NCBI RefSeq assembly: GCF_017357385.1
Contig: NZ_CP071632.1
Span: 1,121,501-1,185,500 of the forward strand
Direction of reading: 5' to 3'
Length of the DNA stretch: 64,000 nucleotides
From: Rhizobium sp. NZLR1
Lineage (GTDB): Bacteria > Pseudomonadota > Alphaproteobacteria > Rhizobiales > Rhizobiaceae
The notes beneath the pieces were generated by a model, which saw only the letters and a list, made by a program, of their open reading frames with translations, ran no database searches and was not told the origin of the DNA. Positions 21,701-24,597 of this stretch are shown piece after piece. Both the position numbers and the translations under genes were made by a program. Each line of letters opens with the position of its first letter. Positions within the stretch are counted from its first letter, which is position 1.

Positions 21701-22140
21701 GTTATCTCCGTGCCGAAAAGCCCGGCGTGCTTGAGCCGCTTGCCGATGGCTGGCACGATACCGGCGACATCGTCACCATCGACGAGGACGGCTTCGTCAA
21801 GATCCGCGGCCGCGCCAAGCGCTTCGCCAAGATCGCCGGCGAAATGATCTCGCTCGCCGCCGTCGAAACGCTTGCCGCCGAACTCTGGCCGGGTGCGCTC
21901 TCGGTCGTCTCCTCGCTGCCCGACGCCAAGAAGGGCGAGCGCCTGGTGCTCCTGACCGACGCCCCCGCCGCCACCCGCGCCGAATTCCTCGCCTTCGCCA
22001 AATCCAGGGGCGCCATGGACATGATGGTGCCGGCCGAGGTCACCATCGGCAAGGTCCCGGTGCTGGGCTCCGGCAAGGTCGATTTCGTCGCGGCGCGCAA
22101 GCTGGCGGAGGGTGCGGTGCAGGCGGGCGAGGCGGCGTAG
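18745..22140 (+). CDS. Fused lysophospholipid transporter / acyltransferase / acyl-ACP synthetase (LplT-Aas type)
   Basis: An 1131-aa three-part protein. Residues about 1-420 form a 12-helix MFS transporter like LplT. Residues about 430-640 form a PlsC-type acyltransferase with NHVSLLDG (His about 457) and FPEGRLT. Residues about 650-1131 form an AMP-binding acyl-ACP synthetase with FTSGSEGTPKG (about 792) and a GYGVTETAP segment. In E. coli the transporter and Aas are separate; here import and re-acylation of lysophospholipid would be one polypeptide in the inner membrane. Start is GTG at 18745 after GAGGAAAG; ATG 15 bases later is the alternative. It follows the PspA module, consistent with membrane repair. 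Confidence 0.93.
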   Translation: MQNKLMTSRKFAPLFWTQFLTAFNDNFLKNTLVFLILFKMSASEGAALVTLAGVILIVPFLLLSALGGELADKHDKAKIAELLKRCEIGIAALAVVGLGFSSIFVLMAALFGFGVISALFGPIKYGILPDHLERRDLPKANAWIEGGTFIAILAGTIIAALAFSSGDNVLLFGSMMMGLSVLCWLASRMIPPTGSKAPDLQIDRNVIRSSYTLVMEIRRDKRLWRSALMNCWFWLVGAFVLSILPTMVTELLGGSELVVPAYLTVFAIAVAVGSGIAAWMSSGRIVLLPAPVGTALLGLFSLDLAWNLWGLASAVHATTIADFFAGQNTIRVAIDLAGMAISGAFIAVPTFAALQTWAHEDRRARVIGAANVLSALFITVGLGLVAAIQALGASIPQILIGLGIINFAVAWLMLKTLPTNPFRDFISILFRAFMRLEVEGLENIKKAGRAPIIALNHVSLLDGALALAITEEEPTFAVDYKIAQAWWVRPFLKMCKFLPLDPTKPMATRSLIKVVQDGNPIGIFPEGRLTVTGTLMKVYDGAAMVADKTGSMVVPVRIDGLEKSYLSYLDNGKIRRRLFPKVKVTILEPVKLEVPPELKGRKRRTAAGAALYQVMSNLMFQTADTSSTVLGRVIEAGHEFGMKKLAVEDPVTGRLTYGKLLTGAAVLGAKFRARFPENNLGVMLPNANGAAATILGVMSAGKVPAMLNFTAGAANILSACKAAEIRHVLTSRAFVTQAKLGPVIEEMEKQVTIVWLDDLRAEVGLLDKIRGLLRKGRPLVKRQPDDPAVILFTSGSEGTPKGVVLTHRNILSNAAQAAARIDFHSGDKVFNILPVFHSFGLTAGTVLPLISGVPVYFYPSPLHYRIVPELIYVSNATIIFGTDTFLNGYARTAHPYDFRSIRYIFSGAEPVKASTRQTYMEKFGLRILEGYGVTETAPVISINTPMYNKSGTVGKILPGMDWKLEPVPGIDEGGRLHVRGANVMAGYLRAEKPGVLEPLADGWHDTGDIVTIDEDGFVKIRGRAKRFAKIAGEMISLAAVETLAAELWPGALSVVSSLPDAKKGERLVLLTDAPAATRAEFLAFAKSRGAMDMMVPAEVTIGKVPVLGSGKVDFVAARKLAEGAVQAGEAA

Positions 22141-22185
22141 GCGGGGCTTGGCCGGCGTCAGGCGCCGAACAAATTCAAGCGAAAT

Positions 22186-22500
22186 GCTTGCGGCATCGAT
22201 ACTCGGGTCAAGCCCGATACTCGGGTCAAGCCCGATACTCGGGTCAAGCCCGATACTCGGGTCAAGCCCGAGTATGACGGAGGGTGGGGCACGCGGGGCA
22301 AGAGGCGAGACGTCTGGAGGGAATTCCAGCAAAATGGGAATTGCGTAAACAACGACGGCACGACGGCAATTCTAACAAAACATCACGCGTTTGCGGCCCT
22401 TGCCCCATAGGCTCCACCACCCTCCGTCATACTCGGGCTTGACCCGAGTATCGGGCTTGACCCGAGTATCGGGCTTGACCCGAGGACCCATGCTGCAAGC
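22186..22500. repeat. MITE-like repeat, copy 1
   Basis: The ends are inverted: GCTTGCGGC...CTCGGG-TCAAGC-CCGAG...GACGGAG on the left and the reverse complement on the right. The left end is expanded into four exact 18-bp tandem units (GATACTCGGGTCAAGCCC, 22198-22269) and the right end into three inverted ones. The core carries GGAATTCCAGCAAAATG and GGCGGCAATTC-like words shared, with changes, by copies 2 and 3. It is preceded by CGCCGAACAAATTCAAGCG, as is copy 2. Confidence 0.8.
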
Positions 22501-22554
22501 GCTGCGTTGCGCTCACACTGACAATAGCGATCGCCGAACAAATTCAAGCGGAGT

Positions 22555-22793
22555 GCTTGCGGCGTGGATACTCGGGTCAAGCCCGAGTATGACGGAGAGC
22601 GGGGACAACGAGCGGCAAGAGGGGATACGTCCGGAGGAATTCTAGTAAAATGCGCGAGCGGTCTTGCGCGGTAATCGCGTAAAATTAATAGGCGGCAATT
22701 CCAATAGACCGCGGCATACTTCGCTATTTGTCGCGCTCGCTCCCCCACCCTCCGTCGTCCTCGGGCTTGACCCGAGGACCCATGGCCGCAAGC
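22555..22793. repeat. MITE-like repeat, copy 2
   Basis: A 239-bp element with about 43-bp terminal inverted repeats, each holding the CTCGGG-TCAAGC-CCGAG hairpin. The core is nearly identical to copy 3 (GGAATTC-AGTAAAATGCG, GGCGGCAATTCCAATAGACCG). Its right end stops 12 bp before the stop codon of the GIY-YIG gene. Confidence 0.85.
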
Positions 22794-22805
22794 ACTGCGT
22801 TCGCG

Positions 22806-23090
22806 TCACCACAGCGTAAGATAGAGATCATCCCACCCGGGATTCATCGCCTCGACCAGATCGATCTTCCATTGCCGGTACCAGCGTTTCAACGACTTCT
22901 CACGCTGGATCGCGCTGCCGATATCCCAATGTTCCTCGTACCAGACGAGGCGCGTGCACCCATATTTCCAGGCAAAGCCCGGCGTCAGCCCTTCGCGATG
23001 TTCATAGATGCGGCGCTCCAGATCGGATGTCACGCCGATATAGAGCGTGCCGTTTTTCTGGTTGGTGATGATGTAGACATATCCCGCCAT
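22806..23090 (-). CDS. Small GIY-YIG nuclease-domain protein embedded in repeats
   Basis: A 94-aa single-domain GIY-YIG protein of the YhbQ/UPF0213-like size class: YVYIITN (about 4-10), LYIGVTSDLERR (about 16-27) and a conserved Glu in a helix near residue 71 (IQREKSLKRW). I start it at the ATG at 23090; the longer frame runs through repeat DNA. The gene occupies almost exactly the gap between repeat copies 2 and 3 (12 and 11 bp to spare). It ends Trp-stop on a TGGTGAC sequence also found at the far end of copy 3. A role in cutting or spreading these repeats is an inference. Confidence 0.88.
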   Translation of the reverse strand: MAGYVYIITNQKNGTLYIGVTSDLERRIYEHREGLTPGFAWKYGCTRLVWYEEHWDIGSAIQREKSLKRWYRQWKIDLVEAMNPGWDDLYLTLW

Positions 23091-23101
23091 GCCCGCAGAG
23101 T

Positions 23102-23391
23102 GCTTGGTTGTGGATACTGGGGTCAAGCCGGATCCTCGGGTCAGGCCCGATACTCGGGTCAAGCCCGATACTCGGGTCAAGCCCGAGTATGACGGAGAGC
23201 GGGGACAACGAGCGGCAAGAGGGGAGACGTCCGGAGGAATTCCAGTAAAATGCGCGAGCGGTTTTGCGCGGCAATCGCGTAAATGATAGGCGGCAATTCC
23301 AATAGACCGCCGCACACGTTGATATTTCTCGCATGCGTTCCCCCACCCTCCGTCGTCCTCGGGCTTGACCCGAGGACCCATGGCCGCAAGC
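23102..23391. repeat. MITE-like repeat, copy 3
   Basis: Same ends and core as copy 2; the left palindrome is expanded into several imperfect 18-bp units (GGTCAAGCC with TACTCG or TCCTCG spacers). It starts 11 bp upstream of the GIY-YIG start codon, so that gene's promoter must lie inside this repeat. Its right end runs to the stop codon of the MFS gene. Confidence 0.85.
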
Positions 23392-23403
23392 ACCGCGTTC
23401 ATG

Positions 23404-24597
23404 TCACCAAACCGCCGCCCGCTCCGCCGTCTTCAGCCGCAAGCCGAGAACCAGCGGCACGGTGAGCGCGTAGACGATGACGACCGATAGCCAGATGGCG
23501 CCCGGCCATTCCTCCCGGACGAGGAAATAGAGACTGGAGAAGCCAAGCGGCGCGACGATGGAGGCGAGGCTGACGACTGAGGCCAGCACGCCCTGGAACT
23601 GGCCTTGGCTGCTCTCATCGACCTGCCGGGTCGCCAAGGACTGCAGCGCCGGCACGCCGATGCCGCCGAGCGCGAAGACCGGCATGATTGCGAAGATCAT
23701 CCAGCCCTGGCCGGCGAAGGCCATGACACCGAGCGCGATTGAGACGCCGGCAACCCCCACGAGGATCGTCGCGCGTTCGCCGAGCAGTTTGACGGCCGGT
23801 CCCGGCAGGAAGGCCTGGGCGAGCGTCTGGCAGATGCCGAAGGCGCCAAGCGAAAGGCCGATCGACAGCCCGTTCCAGTGGAAGCTGTCGCTGCCCCACA
23901 GCGCCCAGCAGGTGCCGTAGGCCTCGCCGGTGGCGCTGAAGATGAAGAACAGGATGACGACCGGCAGCAGGCTCTTGACCTCCAGCACCGAACGCAGCGG
24001 TTTGAGCGGATTGAGTGCCGCCAGATCGATCTTCTCGCGGCTGCCCGGGCGCGATTCCGGCAGGATGAAGAAGGCGAGCAGCAGGTTTGCGCCATTGAGC
24101 GCGGCCGCAGCGATGAAGGGCAGCCGCAGCCAATAATCGCCGAGCACGCCGCCGAGAACCGGGCCGACGATGAAGCCGAGGCCGAACATCGCGTTGAAAA
24201 GACCGAAGCGGCGGGCGCGTTTCTCCTCCGGTGAGATGTCGGTGATATAGGCTGATGCCACCGAGATATTGGCGCTGGTCAGCCCGGCAATCGCCCGGCC
24301 GACGAACAGCAGTGCGAGATTGGGCGCAAAAGCCAGGAACAGGTAGTTGACGGCGGCACCGGCGAGCGAAATCAGCAGCACCGGCCGGCGGCCGAGCCGG
24401 TCGCTGAGGGCGCCGAGCACCGGCGCGAAGATGAACTGCATCACCGCATAGAGCGCGGTCATCGTGCCGATCATGGGCGCGACGTTTTCGGCATGGGTGA
24501 TATCGCGCAGCAGCGACGGCAGGATCGGGAAAATCAGCCCGATGCCGACGGCATCGAGGACAATGGCGGTGAAGATGACGATAAGGGATCTGGTCAT
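23404..24597 (-). CDS. MFS drug exporter, TetA-like
   Basis: A 397-aa 12-helix major facilitator. It shows the family motif between helices 2 and 3, GALSDRLGRRP (about residues 60-70), as in the tetracycline-type DHA1 exporters. Start set at the ATG at 24597, where the first transmembrane helix begins (MTRSLIVIFTAIV); the frame upstream is hydrophilic and unlikely. The last codons, Trp-stop, are formed at the edge of repeat copy 3. The substrate cannot be assigned; no adjacent tetR. Confidence 0.88.
   Translation of the reverse strand: MTRSLIVIFTAIVLDAVGIGLIFPILPSLLRDITHAENVAPMIGTMTALYAVMQFIFAPVLGALSDRLGRRPVLLISLAGAAVNYLFLAFAPNLALLFVGRAIAGLTSANISVASAYITDISPEEKRARRFGLFNAMFGLGFIVGPVLGGVLGDYWLRLPFIAAAALNGANLLLAFFILPESRPGSREKIDLAALNPLKPLRSVLEVKSLLPVVILFFIFSATGEAYGTCWALWGSDSFHWNGLSIGLSLGAFGICQTLAQAFLPGPAVKLLGERATILVGVAGVSIALGVMAFAGQGWMIFAIMPVFALGGIGVPALQSLATRQVDESSQGQFQGVLASVVSLASIVAPLGFSSLYFLVREEWPGAIWLSVVIVYALTVPLVLGLRLKTAERAAVW

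Follow-up and report, generated by a model that had tools for sequence, protein, structure and literature searches.

The window analyzed here, a stretch of 64,000 nucleotides of Rhizobium sp. NZLR1, belongs to a 4.58-Mb contig in a genome of 6.86 Mb, and it carries three repeats of about 220-315 bp each, lying head to tail, with a small GIY-YIG nuclease gene (gene A) filling the gap between the second and the third. This arrangement, first proposed in a sequence-only reading of the same DNA, was confirmed. Copy 1 (about 22186-22500) and copy 2 (about 22565-22792) are gene-less pairs of CGTC-tagged REPs and copy 3 (about 23102-23391) is a further REP pair; none of the three is assigned a strand, and their ends were placed by eye. 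Gene A occupies positions 22806-23090 on the minus strand, with a spacing of 11 bp on one side, as had been proposed, and of 13 bp, instead of the proposed 12, on the other. Copies 2 and 3 share 97% identity over 117 nt and 87% over 134 nt. The word CGCCGAACAAATTCAAGCG stands, on the plus strand, in front of copies 1 (22163-22181) and 2 (22532-22550) only, in agreement with the earlier reading, and is part of a 55-nt repeat found at 22163 and 22532.

The arms of these elements follow the order TGG-palindrome-GACG on the left and CGTC-palindrome-CCA on the right, which turns the tags inward and the tails outward, so that gene A is bordered on both sides by the tail end of a REP pair. The left-arm order is clearest in copy 2; in copies 1 and 3 this arm is made up of tandem units that are in part degenerate. 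In copy 1, whose tags point inward, 18-bp tandem units number four in the left arm and three in the right. The left REP of copy 2 (22565-22594) bears the GACG tag in reverse at 22591, and its right REP (22753-22782, plus strand), beside the 3' end of gene A, comprises CGTC at 22753-22756, a 9-bp stem, the loop CTTGA and a CCA tail directed towards the gene; the computed folds of the two hairpins yielded z values of -3.5 and -3.3. The arm of copy 3 facing the gene consists of degenerate 18-bp tandem units, the outermost of which showed no stable fold (z -0.1), and the intact REP on the 5' side of the gene lies at 23168-23194 on the minus strand, reading on the plus strand as the stem ATACTCGGG, the loop TCAAG and then GACG (at 23191). 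The outer REP of copy 3, whose tags likewise point inward, spans 23351-23380 on the plus strand, with CGTC at 23351-23354, the stem GTCCTCGGG, the loop CTTGA and the tail CCA (fold z -2.2).

According to the excerpted text of PMC3733652, CGTC-tagged REPs carry the tag CGTC (or TGTC, CCTC), a stem of 8-9, a loop of 4-5 and mostly a CCA tail, occur predominantly as head-to-head dimers, and are known from five phyla, mostly from alphaproteobacteria; in the same excerpts they are described as having no dedicated transposase. The CGTC tags, 9-bp stems and 5-nt loops of the window fit this definition, and CCA tails combined with inward tags (a head-to-head dimer) were observed in copy 2 and at the right end of copy 3, with the deviation that some stems start with GT instead of the usual AT. 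The three window repeats are pairs of CGTC-tagged REPs, sharing tag, stem, loop, CCA tail and dimeric organization with the CGTC-1 to CGTC-4 REPs, which include the Neisseria dRS3 and the Rickettsia RPE-4 and RPE-6 elements. In having terminal inverted repeats, no gene of their own and multiple copies, they also resemble MITEs.

Gene A encodes a single-domain protein of 94 aa (Pfam: PF01541, E 1.5e-18). Pfam searches detected GIY-YIG and T5orf172 alone, with no HUH/Y1 tyrosine transposase domain. The Tyr, Arg, His and Glu residues with a catalytic role in GIY-YIG enzymes are all present (Y6, Y17, R27, H31 and E64), and over 97 aligned rows they were conserved at 100%, 100%, 98%, 97% and 100%, respectively. 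The structure model (pLDDT 96.4) exhibits the GIY-YIG fold, with Slx1, UvrC-N and I-TevI among its structural neighbors. With I-TevI-like homing endonucleases gene A shares the catalytic domain, the key residues and the character of a nuclease that might promote its own spread; unlike them, it has no separate C-terminal DNA-binding domain, no intron was found with it and it is flanked by palindromes. The Rfam scan of the window returned no intron family at the gathering threshold, and gene A is intergenic. Its small single domain and its occurrence in several copies per genome resemble the COG2827 "UvrC-like" endonucleases, of which we take it to be a member. In the excerpts of PMC1839093, these small nucleases appear as possible repair enzymes whose role in Caulobacter is an open question, one Caulobacter gene is reported to carry an SOS box, and no link to repeats is drawn. 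Two other readings were considered and rejected: a phage source, given zero matches at E 1e-5 among 50,697 phage records, and a defense role, since the PADLOC matches were weak and the best of them was a homing endonuclease.

The sequence-only reading had held that the promoter of gene A must lie in copy 3, which we could not confirm: no sigma-70-like site was detected at 22100-23450 in a scan confined to that promoter type, which alphaproteobacterial promoters may escape. An MFS-type ORF ends at 23404, and since gene A lies downstream of it in the same direction, read-through is possible. The frame of gene A also stays open across the whole of copy 3 (22806-23402, minus strand, 198 aa from an ATG at 23402), so that databases may annotate an N-terminally extended protein containing translated repeat.

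The core of the repeat, CTCGGGTCAAGCCCGAG, has 21 exact sites in the genome (none for the backward pattern) and up to 57 per genome in relatives. We assigned by hand 100 genomes of the genus to those with intact gene A (25), with a broken or fragmentary copy (6) and without it (69). Genomes with intact gene A had a median of 12 cores and none was at zero, those with broken or fragmentary copies had a median of 3, and those without the gene had a median of 0, 38 of them being at zero and 17 carrying 4 or more; the p-value of 3e-9 for this difference overstates it because the genomes are related, and the p-values for the clustering described below overstate in the same way. Those 17 of 69 gene-less genomes with at least 4 copies led us to reject a strict one-to-one rule linking gene A to the CTCGGG/CCCAGGG core; in them the repeats either persist or are served without gene A.

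These repeats are concentrated around the gene. In the genome of the window, after exclusion of the array surrounding gene A, 8 of 11 loci fell within 100 kb of it against 0.32 expected, and the corresponding counts were 9 of 20 in G060, 8 of 14 in G073, 9 of 21 in G088 and, least strongly, 4 of 9 in G069 (for which 40 of 41 sites entered the test), so that clustering was seen in all five genomes tested; the draft G076 was left out. Chance clustering was rejected, as reversed-pattern controls gave 0 in every count and far positions, ORFs and shuffled sequence were also low. The control is only partial, because G007, which lacks gene A and has 44 cores, also clusters them near the syntenic locus; past presence of gene A, or a favorable region, may have contributed to such a cluster. 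In G060, a tandem array of 11 REP cores with a spacing of 171-173 bp was observed about 38 kb from the gene (C1:1170272-1171990).

The palindrome accompanying the gene can differ among close relatives. Several Rhizobium strains harbor a 94-97% identical protein flanked by CCCAGGGTCAAGCCCTGGG in place of CTCGGGTCAAGCCCGAG, and in G060, G069 and G073 the CCCAGGGTCAAGCCCTGGG-flanked gene occupies the chromosomal site of the window, with both site flanks found. As near-identical proteins thus lie between two palindrome types, recognition must tolerate an altered stem. In G005, G009 and G023, the same site is 245-430 bp long and contains neither gene nor core.

Taking the analysis beyond the genus, we searched 299 Pseudomonadota genomes, 145 of which match the gene, and retained 80 strong-match regions (E 1e-20 or better) from 52 genomes outside the genus of the window; these were taken down the ranked list before their flanks were looked at, with some qualifying matches left out and several genes sharing a genome. 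The flanks were compared by a motif-free inverted-flank test, in which the upstream flank is aligned with the reverse complement of the downstream flank and the cut-off of 28 corresponds to the 99% quantile of the controls in the genus test. In the genus, 14 of 20 genes passed the test. In the phylum set, 57 of 80 did (36 of 52 with one gene per genome), whereas the pass rate was 21 of 2484 for positions taken as controls, 18 of 776 for ORFs of 150 aa or longer in these regions and 5 of 140 for ORFs that stand isolated. A YGTC palindrome was present on both sides of 31 of the 80 genes, versus 6 of 776 ORFs and 3 of 140 isolated ORFs. The strict literature-defined motif, fixed beforehand, had a density of 2.23 per kb in the 200 bp next to the gene and of 0.044 at 3-10 kb, and only 33 of 80 genes had it in those 200 bp; for a relaxed motif the density was 3.50 per kb up to 250 bp from the gene, 0.215 at 3-10 kb and 0.084 in Markov-shuffled sequence; such counts vary between tests as motif definitions and flank lengths differ. 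The REPs were mostly oriented with their tails towards the gene (upstream 49 plus and 17 minus, downstream 23 plus and 50 minus). The gene starts in this set are those of local tblastn matches, which puts distances off by up to about 15 nt. Among 80 loci from named genomes, of which 78 were scored, 46 passed the inverted-flank test versus 9 of 943 control positions, and the motif was found on at least one side in 74 and on both in 38; at one locus of this set (L269) the frame stops after 17 bases and its downstream flank is consequently wrong.

The enrichment of GIY-YIG genes near the repeats, which had been predicted for Rhizobium, thus holds in the genus and in the phylum against both position and ORF controls. 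Orthologs without any repeat, named beforehand as the contrary outcome, do occur, as a minority: 71 of the 80 phylum genes satisfied at least one loose criterion (versus 210 of 2484 positions), the remaining 9 satisfied neither mechanical test, several of them showing palindromes by eye, and 6 of the 20 genus genes fell below the inverted-flank cut-off. Five A-type genes (L092, L101, L117, L118 and L144) are found in draft assemblies less than 1 kb from where a contig ends, and the module is probably under-assembled and under-counted in consequence.

Phylogenetic analysis of 120 proteins separated an A clade of 100 rows (support 100/97), a weakly supported B group of 12 (84/63) and a C clade of 8 (96/99). 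The second small GIY-YIG gene of the same genome, gene B, is 36% identical to gene A and is flanked by CCTTCGAGGC..GCCTCAGGATGAGG, a family with 15 exact genome sites, 4 of them within 1 kb of gene B (region C1:3149700-3150800). Three relatives of gene B from one other family of the class (L175, L176 and L179) adjoin CCCTTCGACAAGCTCAGGGCGAACGG-type repeats. All 12 B genes have a palindrome of the CCTGAG..TCGAAG type or the TGGTGAG..CGAACCACG type on at least one side and 7 of 12 on both, versus 12 and 0 of 404 control positions; this pattern was written after the B flanks had been viewed, which makes the enrichment descriptive, and in the motif-free test 8 of 12 B rows passed. In the C clade 0 of 8 rows passed, and one member (L181) has a B-type palindrome on one side. 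The member of this clade from the genome of the window has a very long branch. No palindrome family brackets the third GIY-YIG gene of the genome (99 aa, near a tRNA). The divide between flanked and unflanked genes does not coincide with the UPF0213 name: gene A is similar to UPF0213 proteins in fold and size, with 1zg2 as the nearest solved chain by sequence at a weak E of 7e-4, whereas gene B (E 4e-12) and two C-clade proteins (E 3e-16 and 2e-14) match UPF0213 far better. Within the A clade, flank similarity tracked protein similarity in pairs across host families, the correlation being small (rho 0.16) and reached by 0 of 500 free shuffles and by 1 of 500 shuffles within families. The gene is multi-copy in some genomes, the highest count being 8 matches, fragments included.

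The pairing extends far beyond the rhizobia, to Neisseria, a cyanobacterium and a plasmid of Bacteroidota. Out of 44 matching records in a plasmid collection we examined seven, all of which scored at least 33 in the inverted-flank test (cut-off 28). Next to the homolog of Neisseria gonorrhoeae lies CGTCATTCCCGCGCAGGCGGGAATC, of the dRS3 type, and the other records passing the test derive from Planktothrix agardhii (Cyanobacteriota), Spirosoma oryzicola (Bacteroidota, on a plasmid), Azospirillum lipoferum, Sinorhizobium meliloti, Novosphingobium aromaticivorans and Aeromonas caviae; A. lipoferum, S. meliloti and Neisseria are also among the carriers of CGTC REPs named in the excerpts of PMC3733652. 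On the P. agardhii plasmid, the homolog has a type IIL restriction-modification gene on one side and a DISARM helicase gene on the other. For the dRS3-like repeat, A-type genes (75 genomes with a match at E below 1e-11, set by hand) were found in 19 of 36 genomes with at least 4 copies versus 56 of 263 others, many of the genomes being incomplete; the presence of the gene predicts this repeat only in part.

Alleles with and without the gene module, whose existence the earlier reading had put forward as a check, were found at sites in both Azospirillum and Rhizobium. In A. lipoferum 4B the module sits between sufB and sufC, and the same gap is devoid of it in A. ramasamyi, A. oryzae, Azospirillum sp. 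B510, A. thermophilum and A. brasilense; in strain B510 the gap holds another inverted repeat. At one Rhizobium site, G026 carries the gene module, the genome of the window, G040 and G046 carry a gene-less REP pair, and in G027, G014, G045 and six more the site flanks are no more than 26 bp apart. Across the strains compared at this site (L300-L310), different repeat families or none were present, as if it were an insertion hot spot. No clean target-site duplication was seen at the two polymorphic sites, nor was a fixed junction found. We further compared 12 pairs of paralogous regions, 10 of them within one genome, and examined the edges of the shared block in 8 within-genome comparisons. In 5 of these 8, one edge of the block lay at the tag or at most 4 bases from it: a 449-bp block of G026 starting CTCCGTC, a block of G216 starting CCGTCA, two of G153 starting CTTCGTC and CCTTCGTC, and one of G147 ending AATGACG. 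In the other 3 (two in G268, one in G088) neither edge was at the tag, and in 0 of 8 were both. Together, these observations show a recurrent, clade-specific association between GIY-YIG genes and repeats, with signs of mobility.

The closest known counterparts of this association are the RAYT (TnpA-REP) genes and their REPtrons, in which a small nuclease gene likewise lies between inverted REPs with multiple REP copies elsewhere, gene and repeat form subfamily-specific pairs, and gene-less dimers exist. Unlike RAYTs, which are HUH/Y1 enzymes associated with GTAG-tagged REPs, the enzyme of the window belongs to the GIY-YIG class and its REPs bear the CGTC tag; moreover, the palindrome loci are concentrated near the GIY-YIG gene in the five genomes tested. 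Compared with the published CGTC-tagged REPs, a nuclease partner is proposed here, and among the matches listed in a search of open-licence PubMed Central articles, preprints excluded, no paper joined GIY-YIG genes with REPs. The sequence-only proposal of a nuclease gene travelling with the palindromes, analogous to RAYTs and of another enzyme class, is thereby supported by the enrichment and by the alleles with and without the module. We consider it fairly probable that the window holds a selfish module composed of the GIY-YIG gene and inverted CGTC-REPs, on which the enzyme would act.

Under such a model, the enzyme would recognize an extruded or single-stranded hairpin next to the CGTC tag and nick or cut beside the tag, as structure-specific GIY-YIG nucleases do on branched DNA, and the REP unit, alone or together with the gene, would then be copied by host replication and repair into that break or into a site close to it. 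The gene-less, MITE-like REP pairs would then be derived from the gene module or mobilized together with it. GIY-YIG enzymes hydrolyze DNA and are not known to form a covalent intermediate, which leaves the joining step to host repair; junctions should then vary and a fixed duplication should be absent, in accord with the observations. This course of cutting and host repair would account for the tandem arrays, the exchange of palindromes at one locus, the local spread and the unfixed junctions. The GIY-YIG enzyme may thus be the functional counterpart of RAYT for the CGTC superfamily, relying on hydrolysis and host repair instead of HUH-tyrosine chemistry; that its cutting of REPs drives their spread is what we infer from these sequence comparisons.

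A homing parasite would explain part of the same evidence. Here, a free-standing GIY-YIG nuclease would invade REP pairs that spread by other means and serve it as target and as source of homology. GIY-YIG homing enzymes such as I-TevI spread by break repair, the weak NCBIfam and PADLOC matches of gene A fall on intron and homing endonucleases, a site with the gene in one strain is taken up by gene-less REP pairs in others, and one protein type resides within two palindrome types, all of which would suit such an invader. The scenario accords poorly with the co-variation of gene and palindrome type across host families, with the clustering of repeats around the gene copies, with the joint presence of gene and REPs in A. 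lipoferum where five other records show no CGTC-REP, and with a different GIY-YIG clade being paired with palindromes of its own; we hold it to be unlikely, while keeping it in consideration.

Still less probable is an enzyme of maintenance or repair that resolves REP cruciforms and is kept adjacent to them for regulation or co-inheritance, the repeats spreading independently. Slx1, which cuts branched DNA, is among the nearest structures, and the SOS box at one Caulobacter COG2827 gene (excerpts of PMC1839093) points the same way; this role leaves unexplained the position of the gene between inverted REPs and its multi-copy state (up to 8 matches, fragments included), as well as its absence from REP-bearing genomes, since 17 of the 69 genomes without gene A have 4 or more cores and 17 of the 36 with at least 4 dRS3-like copies have no A-type gene. 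The intergenic nature of REP arrays and the several unrelated repeat families at one site might otherwise suggest passive hitchhiking, in which REP-dense intergenic spots tolerate insertions and small genes gather there by chance. Ordinary genes do not behave in this manner, with inverted flanks at 18 of 776 ORFs of the regions compared and 5 of 140 isolated ORFs against 57 of 80 GIY-YIG genes, and neither does the third GIY-YIG clade (0 of 8); this already disfavored account is to us scarcely credible. The selfish module is the reading that we retain.

As an extension held a little less firmly, and still probable in our judgment, stand-alone GIY-YIG nucleases may be the missing mobilizers of CGTC REPs across bacteria, with one other palindrome superfamily or more (the CCTGAG..TCGAAGG type) having a GIY-YIG partner of its own. 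Two orphans would meet in this pairing, namely the CGTC REPs, described as having no dedicated transposase, and the small COG2827 nucleases, whose role in Caulobacter is regarded as unsettled. The genomic patterns suggest that a tiny nuclease contributes to the spread of a widespread class of bacterial repeats. Should the pairing prove functional, it would explain the origin and spread of these repeats from rhizobia to Neisseria and would introduce a new chemistry into transposase-like repeat mobilization; if true, it would define a class of minimal mobile elements that depend on a hydrolytic, structure-specific nuclease and on host repair, with no transposase.
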